Assembly: GCA_025351245.1 (NCBI GenBank)
Contig: JANXWH010000236.1
Location: 1 to 47,170, forward strand
DNA length: 47,170 nucleotides
DNA from: Chloroflexota bacterium
GTDB taxonomy: Bacteria; Chloroflexota; Limnocylindria; Limnocylindrales; CSP1-4
Direction of reading: 5' to 3'
Below, piece after piece: positions 3,637 to 10,044 of this stretch (its first letter is position 1; each line of letters starts with the position of its first letter). Below the pieces are notes generated by a model. It saw only the letters and a list, made by a program, of their open reading frames with translations. It was not told where the DNA came from and did not search any database. The translations under genes were made by a program, and so were the position numbers.

Positions 3637-5259
3637 TCAGTGAGTCGCCTTGAGCGCGGCCAGAAGTGCGGCCCCGTCCGGCCGGCCCAGCCCGGTGCAG
3701 GCGTCCCAGCCGAGTCCCGCCCCGTAGGCCCCATTGCCGCCGGCCGTGATGTCCCGGAATACGCTCGATGGAGCCCCGTAGAGCAGCGGATTCAGGAAGC
3801 CGACGGGCTTGTTCAGCTGCTGGTTGAGCTGCGCGACGAGGGCAGCCAGGAGTGGTGCGACCGCACTGGTCCCACCGATGACCATCTGCTGCCCGTCCAC
3901 GCGGACCTCGTACCCGCTGACCGGGCTGGCGTCACCGGCGACATCGGGCACGCCGCGGCCGACCCGCCCGCCGGGGTTGGCCGACCTGGGCACCGCTGCG
4001 CTCGCCTGATACGCGGGCAGATCGAAGTAGTCGCTGATCCCTCCACCCGTCGAGCCACCCTGGGCCCCGTCGTTCCAGGCCAGCTCGTCGCTGATCGAGG
4101 CCGTCGAGGCGATCAGGTGAGTCCCGCCGCAGGCGACGACATGCGGGCTGGAGGCCGGGAAGTCCGCGTGGGCGAGGCCATCCCCGACGGCGTCGTCCGA
4201 CCCGTTGTCGCCGGACGCACAGAGAACGGTGACCCCCACGAGAGCGGCTTCCTGGAATGCCTGGTCCATCGCCTGCATCGCCTGGGCGGTCCAATGCTGC
4301 TCCGCCCCTCCCCAGCTGATGGAGATGACAGATGGCTTGTTGACGTTGTCCTGGACCGCGGCGGTCACCGCGTCCAGGAAGCCCCGGTCCGTGTTCGGGG
4401 CGAAGTAGACCGCGATCCTGGCGCCCGGGGCCACCGATCCGGCCACCTCGATGTCCAGCATGACCTCCCCGTCGGCGCTGTTCGGCGTGGTCGGTCGGCT
4501 CTTCGCTCCGTCGACGGAGACTGCGACGATCTTCGGCGCGGAGATGCCCAGTTGCGCGAAGTACGCCTTCAGGTCGCCCCTTCGAAGTCCCCCGCCCAGC
4601 TCGATGATGGCGATGCACTGCCCGCTCCCCGTGGCGGCGGGCACGAAGTCGTAGAGGCGAGCGACCTGCGGTGGTGTGAACGACGTCGCGGCGACGGCCG
4701 GCGCCGCACGTGGCTGCAACGAACCGGCAAGCGAGACGGCGGGCTTCCCCTCGATCGGGAGCGAGCGGAAATGCGGCTTCGCCTGCGGCCGGTCGTCAAG
4801 GCCGAACACTCCCTCGACGATGGCGTCGAGTTCGGTGGGAATCGTCACGGGACCGGTGCGCCCGCGATACGTCCCCTGGGCGGACTGGTACCGCTGAAGC
4901 GTCACCCCGAACGCCGCGCTGACATTCTGGGCGGGACCGGCCAGGACGAGCTTCCGCTGGGCCCGATCGGCCTCGATGACCTCCAGCCCATGCTCCGCCG
5001 CGAACGACCTGACGGCGGCAATGTCGGCTGGGTCTGCGCCCAGGGTGGTGCGCAGCTCGTCCCGCGTCAGGTAGCGGCGTTCTCCTATGCTCTGGGACGA
5101 CACGGCAGGCGCCGCCGGAATCGTGGCCGAGGGGCGCGGTCGGACCCGCACCGTGACCTCGATGCGCTCGTCAGGATGGACATCGCCGATGACCTGAGCT
5201 CCCGGCATCGCCTCGCGGCCGCTGCCAGGAACCTGAACTCTCGCCTTCTCGGAAGTCAC
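3637..5259 (-). CDS. S53 (sedolisin/kumamolisin-like) serine-carboxyl peptidase
   Basis: 540 residues from a GTG at 5259 preceded by GGAAGGGGGG; the frame is open further upstream, but this start fits the ribosome binding site and the family N-terminus. Residues ~1-165 are the pro-domain (PDERIEVTVRVRPRP, later VSAAFGVTLQRY); the catalytic domain follows. Catalytic Glu265 and Asp269 lie in DGEVMLDIEVAG, the oxyanion Asp351 in SGDNGSDD, and nucleophile Ser465 in GGTSAVAP. The Ca-site pattern DITAGGNGAYGAG is near the end. All catalytic residues are present. There is no signal peptide, as in kumamolisin itself. The family cleaves proteins, usually at acid pH, after self-removal of the pro-domain. 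It is separated by a palindrome-rich gap from the upstream cysteine-ladder gene on the same strand. Confidence 0.93.
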   Translation of the reverse strand: MTSEKARVQVPGSGREAMPGAQVIGDVHPDERIEVTVRVRPRPSATIPAAPAVSSQSIGERRYLTRDELRTTLGADPADIAAVRSFAAEHGLEVIEADRAQRKLVLAGPAQNVSAAFGVTLQRYQSAQGTYRGRTGPVTIPTELDAIVEGVFGLDDRPQAKPHFRSLPIEGKPAVSLAGSLQPRAAPAVAATSFTPPQVARLYDFVPAATGSGQCIAIIELGGGLRRGDLKAYFAQLGISAPKIVAVSVDGAKSRPTTPNSADGEVMLDIEVAGSVAPGARIAVYFAPNTDRGFLDAVTAAVQDNVNKPSVISISWGGAEQHWTAQAMQAMDQAFQEAALVGVTVLCASGDNGSDDAVGDGLAHADFPASSPHVVACGGTHLIASTASISDELAWNDGAQGGSTGGGISDYFDLPAYQASAAVPRSANPGGRVGRGVPDVAGDASPVSGYEVRVDGQQMVIGGTSAVAPLLAALVAQLNQQLNKPVGFLNPLLYGAPSSVFRDITAGGNGAYGAGLGWDACTGLGRPDGAALLAALKATH

Positions 5260-5400
5260 AATGGTCCCCCCTTCCAGGACTATCCAGCACGTTCGCCACG
5301 GCTCCAACCCCGCAGGGTCCCACCGTCAGGTCCTTCGCCTCGTCACTGCCCGCGCATGCACCGGGCAAGGGCCGGCTCGCGGTGAGGGTGTTGCATCCTG

Positions 5401-5471: not shown

Positions 5472-7478
5472 TTACCGCTTGCAGAACGCCATGTGGTCGG
5501 AGAAGGTGCCGAAGACCCCTCCGTAGCCAGAGGTGAGATTCAGCGTCGCCTCGAGCCACACGATATAGGCGCATGGCGTCAGGGCGGCGATGTTGAAGTC
5601 ATGCCCACCGCCCGGTGAGACCGCCTGACCATCCACCGAGATGGCCGGGTTGACCGGAGCAGGTGGCGGGATCCCCGGGCCCTCGAGCCGGACATCCAGG
5701 CTGGCGAGGTACGGGTGGTAGGCCGTGAAGACGACGTGGACGTGGGTGCTCAGCGGGACGCAGCCGCCGCCGCTGGCCTCTTCGACGATATCGACGGCGA
5801 GCACAGGGATCGTGCTCACGGGACCGCCAGCCCACTCCGGGTGCCGGATGTAGGTGTACAGGGTGTTGCTGAGGGCGATTTTGACGCGCTCGTTGGAGCT
5901 CACCGCCGCGCCGCCCACGACCTTGCGTGCGTCGAAGTAGATCTTGAAGTGCGGCTTCTCCGACTTCTGTCCGGCGGGCACGCTGTCGCCGGCCTTGAGG
6001 GGCAGCGGCGGTGCGTTGACCGAGAGGTCGAAGACTTCGCTCGTCAGCTTCGTCGTGTCAAGGTTGGCCAGGCCACCGGTCGGGATGAACCGCCCGAGCC
6101 CGCCGAAGGTCAGGCTGTTGTCGCGGGGGACCTCGATCCAGCCACCCGGCTTGACGTCCTTGTTGACCGGGACGGGCGTGGAGGCGCCAGGTCCGGTGTT
6201 GACCGTGGCGATCGCGCCTGGGTTGTTGACATAGTAGTTGGCCGACCGGAGCGTGTAGCTGAGCCCGTTCCAGTCCCAGTATTCGAGCTGGCCGATCACC
6301 GTGGCCGGGATCATCGCCGCGGTCACATCCTGGCGACCGCCGCCGAGTGGGTACTTCTCAGTCTGGAACCGATACTCCTCGGCCTCGGGCGCCGTGCCGT
6401 CGGGCAGGATGCCGATGAGCGGGATGGTCCCGGTGAAGGCGAGACCCCCGGCGGTCGTCGTGCCGTCGGCGGTGAAGTCGTTCCAAATCGGATCAACGCG
6501 ATACGAACCGACGTGGGTGAAGAGCGGGATCGTTGTCGGCGGTCGGCAGATGCAGAAGCAGAACCGCTCGCAGCTCTCGTAGCAGATCCAGTGGCAGAGC
6601 TGGTGGCAGAAGCGGGTGAGTTCGAGTTCCTTTACGAGCGCCGAGAACGCGGGCTCGTTTTGGGAGAGGACCGCCTCGGCGAGACGTTCGAATGCGCCCT
6701 CAACCTTGGCGACCCGAGCGACCGCCTGCGCGAAGGCGCGCATCTCCTCGATGGGTGATTCGATCGCCCGGGGCAGGTCGCCGCACAGACGGCGGCAGAC
6801 GAGCACGCAGCGCCAGCTGCAGAGCCACAGGCAGATATACTCGCAATCGCCTCGGTCGCCGACCAGATTCGCAACGCGCTCACAGTCGAGCTCGAGCGCC
6901 CCCTTGATCAGTTCGCCGAGCGAGTCGCGACTCTCAAGCAGGCGCCGAACGGCGGATCCGGCGACGCTCAGCTCCGCGACGAAGTTCCTCGGCTCGATCG
7001 GCCTGGGCGAGCAGACAATCCCGCAGCGGAGGCGACACCGCACCTGGCAGGCCCAGTGACACAGCAGGTGCGCGAAGCGTTCGCCTTCGACCTGCTTGAG
7101 TAGCCCAGAGAACGCATGCTGGTCGCGGTCCTCGACCGCATCCGCGAGACGCTCGACGAGTTCCTCGTCCTGGGTGATCTTGACCAGGATCTCGGCGAAC
7201 CTGGGCAGCTCGTCGACCGTTACCGGCTGCTCCGGCCAGGGCCCGGCGAGCTCCAGGCAGAGCAGCACGCACTCCTTGGCGCAGAACCAGTGGGATATCC
7301 CCTCGCAGTCGGCCGCCAGGCCGAACTGTCCGAGAAGGCGCTGGAAAGACTCGCCGTCCTCGCCCCGAAAGGCATCCAGGGCGGCCCTGAAGACCGTCTC
7401 GTCCTCCGCGATCCGGCCCATCGCCTCGCCAGATCGCCGGAGATCGTCGAACAACTGCTGCTTGTCTTCCAGAGGCAT
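5472..7478 (-). CDS. Unknown protein with four cysteine-ladder repeats and a beta-rich C-terminal half
   Basis: 668 residues, ATG preceded by GGAGGAGCG. I do not recognise the family. Residues 25-315 hold four ~80-residue repeats, each with a predicted helix (pattern FxxLxxAxxxxxxxAFxxLL) followed by cysteines at every fourth position. The positions are 58/66/70/74, 140/144/148/152/156, 212/216/220/224/228/232 and 291/295/299/303/307/311, with 309 also Cys. Trp often sits inside the ladder (CHWAC, CLWLC, CHWIC). Residues ~315-668 are Gly/Pro/Thr-rich, probably beta-sheet, with few cysteines. There is no signal peptide or membrane segment. Cysteines spaced i, i+4 would line one face of a helix, as in copper-storage Csp proteins, so metal or metal-cluster binding is conceivable; this is inference. 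It lies between peptidase genes, divergent from the M64-like one. Confidence 0.75.
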   Translation of the reverse strand: MPLEDKQQLFDDLRRSGEAMGRIAEDETVFRAALDAFRGEDGESFQRLLGQFGLAADCEGISHWFCAKECVLLCLELAGPWPEQPVTVDELPRFAEILVKITQDEELVERLADAVEDRDQHAFSGLLKQVEGERFAHLLCHWACQVRCRLRCGIVCSPRPIEPRNFVAELSVAGSAVRRLLESRDSLGELIKGALELDCERVANLVGDRGDCEYICLWLCSWRCVLVCRRLCGDLPRAIESPIEEMRAFAQAVARVAKVEGAFERLAEAVLSQNEPAFSALVKELELTRFCHQLCHWICYESCERFCFCICRPPTTIPLFTHVGSYRVDPIWNDFTADGTTTAGGLAFTGTIPLIGILPDGTAPEAEEYRFQTEKYPLGGGRQDVTAAMIPATVIGQLEYWDWNGLSYTLRSANYYVNNPGAIATVNTGPGASTPVPVNKDVKPGGWIEVPRDNSLTFGGLGRFIPTGGLANLDTTKLTSEVFDLSVNAPPLPLKAGDSVPAGQKSEKPHFKIYFDARKVVGGAAVSSNERVKIALSNTLYTYIRHPEWAGGPVSTIPVLAVDIVEEASGGGCVPLSTHVHVVFTAYHPYLASLDVRLEGPGIPPPAPVNPAISVDGQAVSPGGGHDFNIAALTPCAYIVWLEATLNLTSGYGGVFGTFSDHMAFCKR

Positions 7479-7971: not shown

Positions 7972-10044
7972 ATGCCGGACAGCGTTACTCAGATTCGGGC
8001 GGCCGGGCCGGTTGGCTCGAAGCGCAACCTCGTGGTCCTCGGGGATGGCTTCGGCAGCGCTGACCAGACGGCGTACAACAACTGGGTCCAGACAGCGCTG
8101 ATCGACGGCGTCTTCGGTCACGATTACTTCTACGAAGACGCGTCGGCGTGGAACATCTTCCGCGTCAACCTGGTCTCCACGGACTCCGGCGTGAACGTCC
8201 GCGTCTACGACGAACACGGAACCCCGGCCGACTCCAGCGACGACACCATCACCAGCACCACGACGCGCAACACGGCGCTCGACATGATCTTCAGCGGCTC
8301 GTGGTCGCACTGCTGGATGGAGTACGGCGCAAACACGGAGACCCGCATCCAGGCAGCGTTGAAGAAGTGGGTGCCGGACTATAACTTCGTCCTGATCGTC
8401 CTCAACTCCCCGGACTACGGCGGCTGTGGCGGAGGTGGTCGGGCCCACGTCACGCTCGGTGACGACTGGACGGTGATTGCCCACGAGTTCGGCCATGGCC
8501 TGGGCGGACTGGCCGACGAGTATTGCGTCGCGGGCAACTACACGGGCGGCGAGTCCGGTTCGGTGGATCTGACCATCAACACGGACCGAGCGACTCTCAA
8601 ATGGGGCAATTTCGTCAATCCCGGTACGCCGGTGCCCACCGGCAGCGGGACCTGTGCCGGCTTCAATCAGGGCACGAAACCCGCCACCTGGGACGACAAC
8701 CAGGACGTCGGCCTGTTCGAGGGCGGCGGCACGATGAACACCGGCATCTTCCGCCCGGTGATCAACTGCCGGATGCGCAGCAACAGTCCCGCCTACTGCC
8801 CGGTCTGCTACACGTCGTTCAAGCGCCAATACGACGGCTGGACGGGCCATGCCTTCATCAAGAGCTACGCCGGTGACTTCAACGGCGACGGCAAGAGCGA
8901 CGTGCTCGTTCACAGTGGTAACTCGATCCAGGTCTTTCGCTCGACCGGCACGCAGGCCGACCTGGTGTTCAGCGCCGTCGAGCGCGTGCCCGGATCGTGG
9001 CAGTTCCAGCCGAACGACAAGTTCTACATTGGCGACTTCAACGGCGACGGCAAAGACGAGGTCGCGGTCTTCAACGGCGTCGACTGGGTGATGCCGTACC
9101 TGGGTTTGCTCGCCGACGACGGCGCTGGCGGCCTTCGACTCATCGCTCGGTACGATGGTGACATTCCCGGCTGGGGCGGCCTCGCGAGGAACGACCAGTT
9201 CTACGTGGGCGACTTCACCGGCGATCATAAGCAGGATCTGTTCGTCTTCAACGGCGCCGACTGGTCGATGACCTACGTTGCCATGCTCCGCTCCACGGGC
9301 ACCGGCTTCGAGCTCGTGCACCGCTTCGATGGCGACATCCCCGGCTGGGGCGGTCTGGCCCGCAACGACCAGCTGTTCGTCGGCGACTTCAGCGGAGACG
9401 GAAAGGCCGACCTCTACATCTTCAACGGCGCCGATTGGGCCATGAGCTACGTGGGCATGTTCCGTTCGACGGCCACCAACCTGCAGATGACCTCGCGGTT
9501 CGACGGTGACATCCCAGGTTGGGGCGGCCTCGCCAGGAATGACCGCCTCTATGTCGGCGACTTCAACGGCGACCACAAGGCCGATCTCTACATCTTCAAT
9601 GGCGTCGACTGGAGCATGAGCTATCTCGGGATGTTCCGATCCACGGGAACCGGCCTCCAGATGGCCAACCGCTTTGACGGTGATGTGCCCGGATGGGGCG
9701 GGCTCGCCCGCAACGACCAGTTCCTCCCCGCCGATTTCAGCGGAGATGGCAAGACCGACCTCTTCGTCTACAACACCCAGGATTGGGCCACGGAATACCT
9801 CGGCCGCATGAGATCGACCGGGAGCGCCCTCACGGCCGACTTCGTCGGCGACTGGGTCGGGGAGTGGAACCTGAGCGGCGCAGACCGGTATGAGGTCTGC
9901 AACTTCGAGGGCCTGACGGGACAGCCGGACCTCTTCGTCCACAATCAGGACTGGTTTGGGATGATCCGTGGACGGAGATCACTCTCGCTCAACAAGATCT
10001 ACTCGCGCTGGATCCACAACTATCGCTATGGCCGTAACTGGTGA
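7972..10044 (+). CDS. M64-type zinc metallopeptidase with FG-GAP/VCBS repeat tail
   Basis: 690 residues. The ATG at 7972 follows GGGGGG by about 5 nt; the open frame extends far upstream, but that part reads as noise. Residues ~18-290 match IgA-peptidase M64-like enzymes: NLVVLGDGFGSADQ at the start, a HEFGHGLGGLADEY zinc motif at 171-184, then NCRMRSNSPAYCPVCYTSF. Residues ~300-670 are FG-GAP repeats (GDFNGDGKSDVLV, GDFSGDGKADLYI and others) with Ca-binding DxDxDG-like loops. Such repeats often form a beta-propeller. There is no signal peptide, which is unexpected for a presumably extracellular protease. The next gene follows after 12 nt and is probably co-transcribed. Peptidase family assignment is strong; the target is unknown. 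Confidence 0.88.
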   Translation: MPDSVTQIRAAGPVGSKRNLVVLGDGFGSADQTAYNNWVQTALIDGVFGHDYFYEDASAWNIFRVNLVSTDSGVNVRVYDEHGTPADSSDDTITSTTTRNTALDMIFSGSWSHCWMEYGANTETRIQAALKKWVPDYNFVLIVLNSPDYGGCGGGGRAHVTLGDDWTVIAHEFGHGLGGLADEYCVAGNYTGGESGSVDLTINTDRATLKWGNFVNPGTPVPTGSGTCAGFNQGTKPATWDDNQDVGLFEGGGTMNTGIFRPVINCRMRSNSPAYCPVCYTSFKRQYDGWTGHAFIKSYAGDFNGDGKSDVLVHSGNSIQVFRSTGTQADLVFSAVERVPGSWQFQPNDKFYIGDFNGDGKDEVAVFNGVDWVMPYLGLLADDGAGGLRLIARYDGDIPGWGGLARNDQFYVGDFTGDHKQDLFVFNGADWSMTYVAMLRSTGTGFELVHRFDGDIPGWGGLARNDQLFVGDFSGDGKADLYIFNGADWAMSYVGMFRSTATNLQMTSRFDGDIPGWGGLARNDRLYVGDFNGDHKADLYIFNGVDWSMSYLGMFRSTGTGLQMANRFDGDVPGWGGLARNDQFLPADFSGDGKTDLFVYNTQDWATEYLGRMRSTGSALTADFVGDWVGEWNLSGADRYEVCNFEGLTGQPDLFVHNQDWFGMIRGRRSLSLNKIYSRWIHNYRYGRNW
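9154..9849 (+). repeat. 174-nt in-frame repeats in the FG-GAP tail
   Basis: The linker DGD(I/V)PGWGGLARND starts at 9154, 9328, 9502 and 9676, a spacing of exactly 174 nt (58 codons) each time. Each linker is followed by a GDFxGDxKxDL loop, a short Trp-containing strand pair and an RSTG turn. The exact length conservation suggests recent expansion by unequal recombination, while silent differences show that the copies are not newly identical. Confidence 0.85.

Follow-up and report, generated by a model that had tools for sequence, protein, structure and literature searches.

A family of bacterial proteins with paired cysteine-ladder helices: a putative antiparallel cysteine zipper

Closest described systems and the cysteine-ladder protein

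The copper-storage proteins Csp1 and Csp3 carry Cys-rich helices with many CXXXC spacings, and Csp3 is cytosolic, a likeness to the proteins described here, which have no signal peptide. Csp proteins are tetramers in which each four-helix bundle has a core lined by Cys residues of its own helices; in MtCsp3, most Cu(I) sites have two Cys ligands, which belong to adjacent helices at some sites and to a CXXXC motif at eight (PMC5171941). In the plant α-hairpinins, two antiparallel CXXXC helices are joined via Cys1–Cys4 and Cys2–Cys3, and a redesigned hairpinin contains a π-cation contact of Tyr with Lys (PMC7191063). α-Hairpinins are small secreted plant peptides, in which the helices are connected by a short loop.

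The window, i.e., the whole stretch of 47,170 nucleotides that was analysed, encodes a 668-aa protein with similarities to both systems. It belongs to an undescribed family built from pairs of ~78-residue units. The leading reading, given a probability of about one half, is a scaffold in which antiparallel Cys rungs are stapled by disulfides. Each unit is predicted to consist of three helices followed by a ladder helix of ~21–23 residues, in which Cys recurs at every fourth residue. A full ladder has six positions, its register being set by an aromatic residue, mostly W, that follows position 2 at a distance of two residues. The features are listed below, with L002 denoting the closest relative (88% protein identity).

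5472..7478 (-): whole gene, 668 aa, four helical Cys-ladder units and a beta-rich C-terminal half (ORF, Cys count, comparison with L002)
6543..7478 (-): helical Cys-ladder domain, residues 1-312, four units as two pairs, 1+2 and 3+4 (AlphaFold2 block, pLDDT mostly 75-93 over residues 5-312; pair-level tree)
7245..7472 (-): unit 1, residues 3-78 (profile E 3.4e-27; predicted helices 3-24, 27-38, 42-51, 55-78)
7245..7307 (-): ladder 1, residues 58-78, with C58, S62, C66, C70, C74, A78 (Cys positions)
7011..7217 (-): unit 2, residues 88-156 (profile E 5.2e-29; predicted helices 88-102, 105-116, 120-129, 133-155)
7011..7073 (-): ladder 2, residues 136-156, with A136, C140, C144, C148, C152, C156; putative antiparallel partner of ladder 1 (co-loss under k + k' = 7)
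6783..6983 (-): unit 3, residues 166-232 (profile E 7.5e-21; predicted helices 166-181, 184-195, 199-206, 212-232)
6783..6845 (-): ladder 3, residues 212-232, six Cys (Cys positions)
6546..6755 (-): unit 4, residues 242-311 (profile E 8.5e-28; predicted helices 242-256, 262-271, 275-284, 288-310)
6546..6608 (-): ladder 4, residues 291-311, six Cys, putatively paired with ladder 3 (pair duplication, not co-loss)
6882..6884 (-): C199 in unit 3, outside the ladder, proposed partner of C309 (joint presence or absence in four-unit proteins)
6552..6554 (-): C309, a further Cys in ladder 4, between its final two rungs (Cys positions)
5475..6542 (-): beta-rich C-terminal half, residues 313-668, with conserved C573, C636 and C666 (AlphaFold2 strands, family alignment)

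The Cys residues of the helical domain are located at positions 58, 66, 70 and 74 (unit 1), 140, 144, 148, 152 and 156 (unit 2), 199, 212, 216, 220, 224, 228 and 232 (unit 3) and 291, 295, 299, 303, 307, 309 and 311 (unit 4), while the C-terminal half contains Cys at 573, 636 and 666. The ladders hold 4+5+6+6 = 21 Cys with C309 as an extra, which corrects the 22 (plus Cys309) given in a preliminary description of this DNA. That description had also proposed four Cys ladders with exact four-residue spacing in an otherwise unrecognised protein. The ladders are real: residues 1-320 contain 16 Cys–Cys pairs at spacing 4, whereas 20,000 shuffles of the same residues gave 1.56 such pairs on average and never more than 7. 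A unit profile, constructed from 12 units of four family proteins including the window protein's own units, finds four matches in the gene (E 7.5e-21 to 5.2e-29 in a search of the host genome) and no further match in this genome below E 0.06. The exact spacing applies overall, but is broken in ladder 1, where position 62 is Ser in the window protein and Cys in L002. A dN/dS value of 0.166 relative to L002 demonstrates purifying selection on the gene, with 138 of 217 differences residing at third codon positions.

An AlphaFold2 prediction based on four sequences shows confident helices for residues 5-312 and no confidence beyond residue 313. The ladders lie on unbroken predicted helices (55-78, 133-155, 212-232 and 288-310), in line with their earlier assignment to helices. 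When the C-terminal half was modelled alone from seven sequences, almost only strands were predicted, at a mean pLDDT of 56; the beta-rich nature suggested before is thus retained in a poorly resolved model, in which the half probably comprises two beta-sandwich-like parts. Neither the helical-domain model nor the low-confidence beta-half model had a Foldseek match in the PDB at E <= 0.001, and for the latter a viral structure library also gave none at this threshold.

No family in Pfam, NCBIfam, PHROG or the PDB covers the 668-aa protein, as the preliminary description had anticipated. Csp-type families are absent at E <= 1 and the unit profile retrieves no Csp chain at E <= 10. In Csp proteins, the helices of a single four-helix bundle share 13-19 Cys that point into a common core, whereas the Cys residues of the helical half are confined to the fourth helix of each unit, with C199 as the exception; the units are paired and followed by a beta-rich half. 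The view that the layout differs from that of Csp is therefore upheld, and membership in the Csp copper-storage proteins was rejected because of the wrong layout and the lack of profile or structure matches. De novo designed ABLE-type helical bundles (PDB, best E 0.0002) cover the plain helices preceding the ladder and were dismissed as generic helix similarity. A halocin C8-like domain (TIGR04449) matches 24 residues of ladder 4 in the Methylophilaceae relative (E 0.034, 15.1 bits versus a cut-off of 24); this match is below cut-off, limited to one relative and most likely caused by cysteine composition.

The likeness to α-hairpinins concerns the pairing logic, i.e., k + k' = constant, which co-loss supports in the present family and which covers two rungs in the hairpinin; the antiparallel packing and the disulfides of the present family are putative. 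In contrast to these small secreted peptides with a single four-Cys motif, the family proteins are large bacterial proteins of 437-742 aa without signal peptide, and their six-position ladders would provide six rungs between the ladder helices of separate ~78-residue units. By analogy, the proposed zipper resembles an elongated α-hairpinin staple in the way it works, without membership in or sequence relation to the hairpinins.

Relatives and the pairing of ladders 1 and 2

A search for homologues that keep the spacing, as had been recommended, was productive and revealed 11 relatives with Cys ladders in Actinobacteria, Armatimonadota and one Methylophilaceae genome, three by a genome-contig scan and eight by whole-genome profile searches. 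Four units are present in L002 (genome G434), in the Methylophilaceae protein L003 (genome G432, 49% identity), and in proteins from G333, G999, G1036 (G1036a) and G1057. Two units are found in L004 (genome G433) and G440, which represent the phylum of the Armatimonadetes MAG, in a second G1036 gene (G1036b), and in G1276 and G1151. The unit number in the 12 proteins is two or four, never one or three, and a tree places unit pairs 1-2 in a different clade from unit pairs 3-4. Taken together, these observations suggest that the four-unit form is a duplicated pair. The family is rare, with 2/350 genomes in the sample of the window's phylum, 2/43 in the phylum of L004 and 1/369 in the class of L003; none of 106 other genomes of the window's own family contains the gene. 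Single weak matches in G862 and G1645 were judged to be chance.

For analysing Cys losses, each ladder was coded as six positions and position k of unit 1 was matched with position 7-k of unit 2. Under this rule, k + k' = 7, both partners are lost in 10 of the 13 rungs that bear any loss (10 protein sequences), with p = 1.5e-5 when positions are shuffled within ladders for the eight distinct patterns. Shifted antiparallel registers account for at most two double losses. The parallel offset -5 reaches 5/5, consisting of the same end-rung (6-1) losses, and all other parallel offsets give at most four.

Both the window protein and L002 lack unit 1 position 6 and unit 2 position 1 (Ala, Ala), while the Methylophilaceae protein has lost positions 1 and 6 (Arg, Tyr). 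Positions 3 and 4 are lost in G333 and G1057 (Arg, Tyr). The same rung is missing in G999 (Arg, Phe) together with 6/1 (Ser, Ser), and in G1036a (Arg, Tyr) together with 6/1 (Ala, Ser); the two-unit protein G1036b has lost 6/1 (Ala, Trp). The replacements of lost Cys pairs are matched, occurring as Arg-Tyr/Phe, Ala-Ala, Ser-Ser, Ala-Ser or Ala-Trp. The rule was recognised in the earliest relatives and was then obeyed by those found later, namely G999, G1036b, G1057 and, for the most part, G1036a, which amounts to a partial independent test.

Since related sequences share losses, events were also counted on a tree. This resulted in approximately five paired and three single losses, with a chance of 1.3e-4 for all five falling on complementary rungs; the count of five is an estimate, as the inner forks among four-unit proteins are weakly resolved. 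The paired events are a loss of 6-1 (AA or SS/AS) in the window/L002 and the G999/G1036a lineages, a loss of 6-1 (AW) in G1036b, a loss of 1-6 (RY) in the Methylophilaceae protein and a loss of 3-4 (RY or RF) shared by G333, G1057, G999 and G1036a. The unpaired losses, which leave an orphan Cys, are S62 in the window protein, position 2 of unit 4 in G999 and position 4 of unit 1 in G1036a.

Joint loss with matched replacement is most simply explained by contact between the partner residues, and the k + k' = 7 register indicates antiparallel ladder helices. It is therefore most likely, and strongly suggested by the family sequences, that ladder helices 1 and 2 touch in antiparallel orientation, Cys against Cys, over six rungs. 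The co-loss of opposite Cys suggests that the paired helices are fastened rung by rung like a zipper. In the proposed architecture, the ladder helices of a pair would lie side by side with Cys k facing Cys 7-k, so that a pair would have up to six Cys–Cys rungs and a four-unit protein up to twelve. For units 3 and 4, pairing is inferred by analogy and from pair duplication, as the sole loss in these units is unpaired. C199 and C309 are both present in six four-unit proteins and both missing in G1057, and are proposed to behave as another pair.

A coiled-coil scan with ideal helices, which is a feasibility check rather than a model and uses textbook backbone parameters, places six rungs at Cb–Cb <= 5 A only in a tight right-handed antiparallel coil that winds by 6-10 degrees per residue. 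With straight helices two rungs come this close, and in a left-handed coil none does. The right-handed twist needed for six rungs is unusually strong.

Chemistry of the rungs and possible roles

The preliminary description had envisaged four equal repeats with thiols freely available in the cytoplasm. This picture is not supported by proteins that contain only two or four units and specific partners between ladder 1 and ladder 2. Specific antiparallel partners point to Cys–Cys rungs, formed by disulfides or two-coordinate metal, and not to a generic thiol-lined metal store. As single rungs are lost while their neighbours are kept, a two-Cys rung appears to be an independent unit, which suits either of these chemistries.

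Disulfides are considered the leading chemistry with moderate confidence. In the mature protein they would generate a right-handed, stapled and protease-resistant helical scaffold. Attached to this scaffold, the beta-rich C-terminal half would serve for binding, and the protein would function extracellularly, having been exported or released independently of a signal peptide. That the protein is an extracellular scaffold or stalk with a beta-rich binding part is weakly suggested by the tail-fibre-type domain of the G333 relative and by the flanking S53 and M64 peptidases. The complete proposal, a new architecture in which pairs of helical units are held together by a right-handed antiparallel disulfide zipper of six rungs (twelve in tandem), encoded by a single gene that spreads between phyla and matured or exported without signal peptide, is tentative and falls somewhat short of even odds.

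The earlier statement that the protein lacks a signal peptide extends to the family. No signal peptide was found in any of the 12 proteins: all of them begin directly with unit 1, and within the first 40 residues the 15-residue segment of highest hydrophobicity has a mean Kyte-Doolittle value of 0.4-1.3. Disulfides would thus require a non-Sec route or an oxidising compartment, and metal-bridged thiols stay their main rival. In a cytosolic metal-thiolate protein, the antiparallel rungs would stay reduced and each would hold a two-coordinate metal, e.g., Cu(I), making the protein a Csp-like store or buffer that is unrelated to Csp. The missing signal peptides and the predominance of two-Cys Cu(I) sites in MtCsp3 (PMC5171941) are consistent with this explanation, and two-Cys metal sites would likewise vanish as pairs. 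However, Csp sites share bridging Cys, for which an exact loss of one partner is not specially expected, and replacement by Arg-Tyr/Phe would place bulky charged residues inside a metal core. There is also no match to Csp families or structures, no copy is adjoined by a recognised copper, zinc or other metal-handling gene, and one neighbour shows only a weak, below-cutoff match to a cation-efflux protein. A metal-thiolate function is therefore regarded as unlikely, although it ranks first among the alternatives.

The loss of single rungs also bears on structural zinc or iron-sulfur sites, in which four Cys of two neighbouring rungs would bind one metal site. CXXXC motifs on two helices could form such sites, and six rungs would correspond to three sites per pair. 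Yet lone rungs (6-1, 1-6, 3-4) are lost with the neighbour kept, except in G1036a, which would leave half sites and renders this assignment highly improbable. Rung loss is also tolerated without visible loss of the rest, an observation that is difficult to reconcile with a cytosolic dithiol/disulfide switch or redox sink, in which rung cycling would alter the exposure of the beta-rich half. Paired Cys and a cytosolic-looking N-terminus would fit a redox switch, but twelve equivalent rungs are rarely needed for this purpose and no thioredoxin-like or redox genes were found around the copies examined; this role is considered improbable.

Export without a signal peptide could be explained if a contractile injection system carried the protein as cargo or contained it as a component. 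A sheath-family gene is present in the window's genome and in two or three other hosts, and both the beta-rich half and the tail-fibre-like insert of one relative would be compatible with such a role. The sheath match is located on contig C110, however, while the window is on C161, and it is absent in 7/11 host genomes including that of the close relative (G434), where absence is no proof, as the hosts are largely metagenome assemblies. As no more than 3-4 of the 11 hosts have sheath genes, the explanation was rejected and is given the lowest probability of all readings.

If the disulfide-stapled scaffold is correct, the two-rung staple of a plant peptide would be extended to six rungs in a bacterial protein, which would give structural biology a natural example of a long right-handed Cys zipper that could be tested and copied, and would raise the question of how a disulfide-rich protein without signal peptide matures. 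Rungs that hold metal would instead define a metal-thiolate scaffold unrelated to Csp. For either chemistry, the pairing rule yields specific and cheap predictions for an otherwise unannotated family.

Gene surroundings and mobility

The DNA homology between the window and L002 (87%) begins 12 nt before the ATG and is absent outside the gene, suggesting that the gene moves alone. A viral or plasmid origin was rejected, as no match emerged at the protein level from viral contigs, from plasmids or from phages. A degenerate Cys-ladder DNA pattern retrieved 99 viral stretches, whose best profile scores of ~17 bits correspond to chance Cys-rich matches.

No neighbourhood that could hint at function recurs across the family copies examined. 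In the window, the gene is flanked by an S53 (kumamolisin-type) peptidase gene on the same strand, at 3637-5307 (-), and on the other strand by a gene for an M64 peptidase with FG-GAP repeats, at about 7972-10044 (+). Members of the S53 and M64 families are usually secreted. Both neighbours appear to start without a signal peptide, with start codons inferred by eye. The sheath-family gene of the window's genome (G000:C110:28492-28917, E 9.4e-26) could belong to a contractile injection system or a prophage. In Methylophilaceae (L030, 5696-12417), the relative is positioned between a papain-family peptidase gene and genes for weak trypsin-like and DUF2278/LTD proteins.

Upstream of L002 (JADGPN010000269.1, 102-3845) are genes for a BTAD (SARP-type) regulator and an ATP-grasp peptide maturase (TIGR04187, E 3.6e-45, which is below the model's cut-off), and a second BTAD gene occurs near the G1057 copy. 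A radical SAM gene is located ~460 nt downstream of the two-unit gene in G1276 (L158, G1276:C394, 2941-3966). A link to RiPPs was rejected, since the other copies examined are not accompanied by genes similar to the ATP-grasp gene of L002 or the radical SAM gene of G1276. An overlapping gene at the L002 locus encodes a protein of 145 aa whose middle is rich in Lys, Glu and Phe (FEIKEFKFEKIEKFEKLEHEKWW); it resembles a precursor of the graspetide type and is a possible candidate for one.

The G333 protein (L028, G333:C486; 742 aa) contains a phrog_38058 tail-fibre-type domain at residues about 390-470 (E 1.2e-9), which was detected in this relative only. The two-unit gene of G440 (L029 / L026, G440:C133) shows an apparent frame change in its C-terminal half; similarity seems to continue in another frame beyond its 370-aa open frame, so that the gene is either broken or affected by an error in sequencing.
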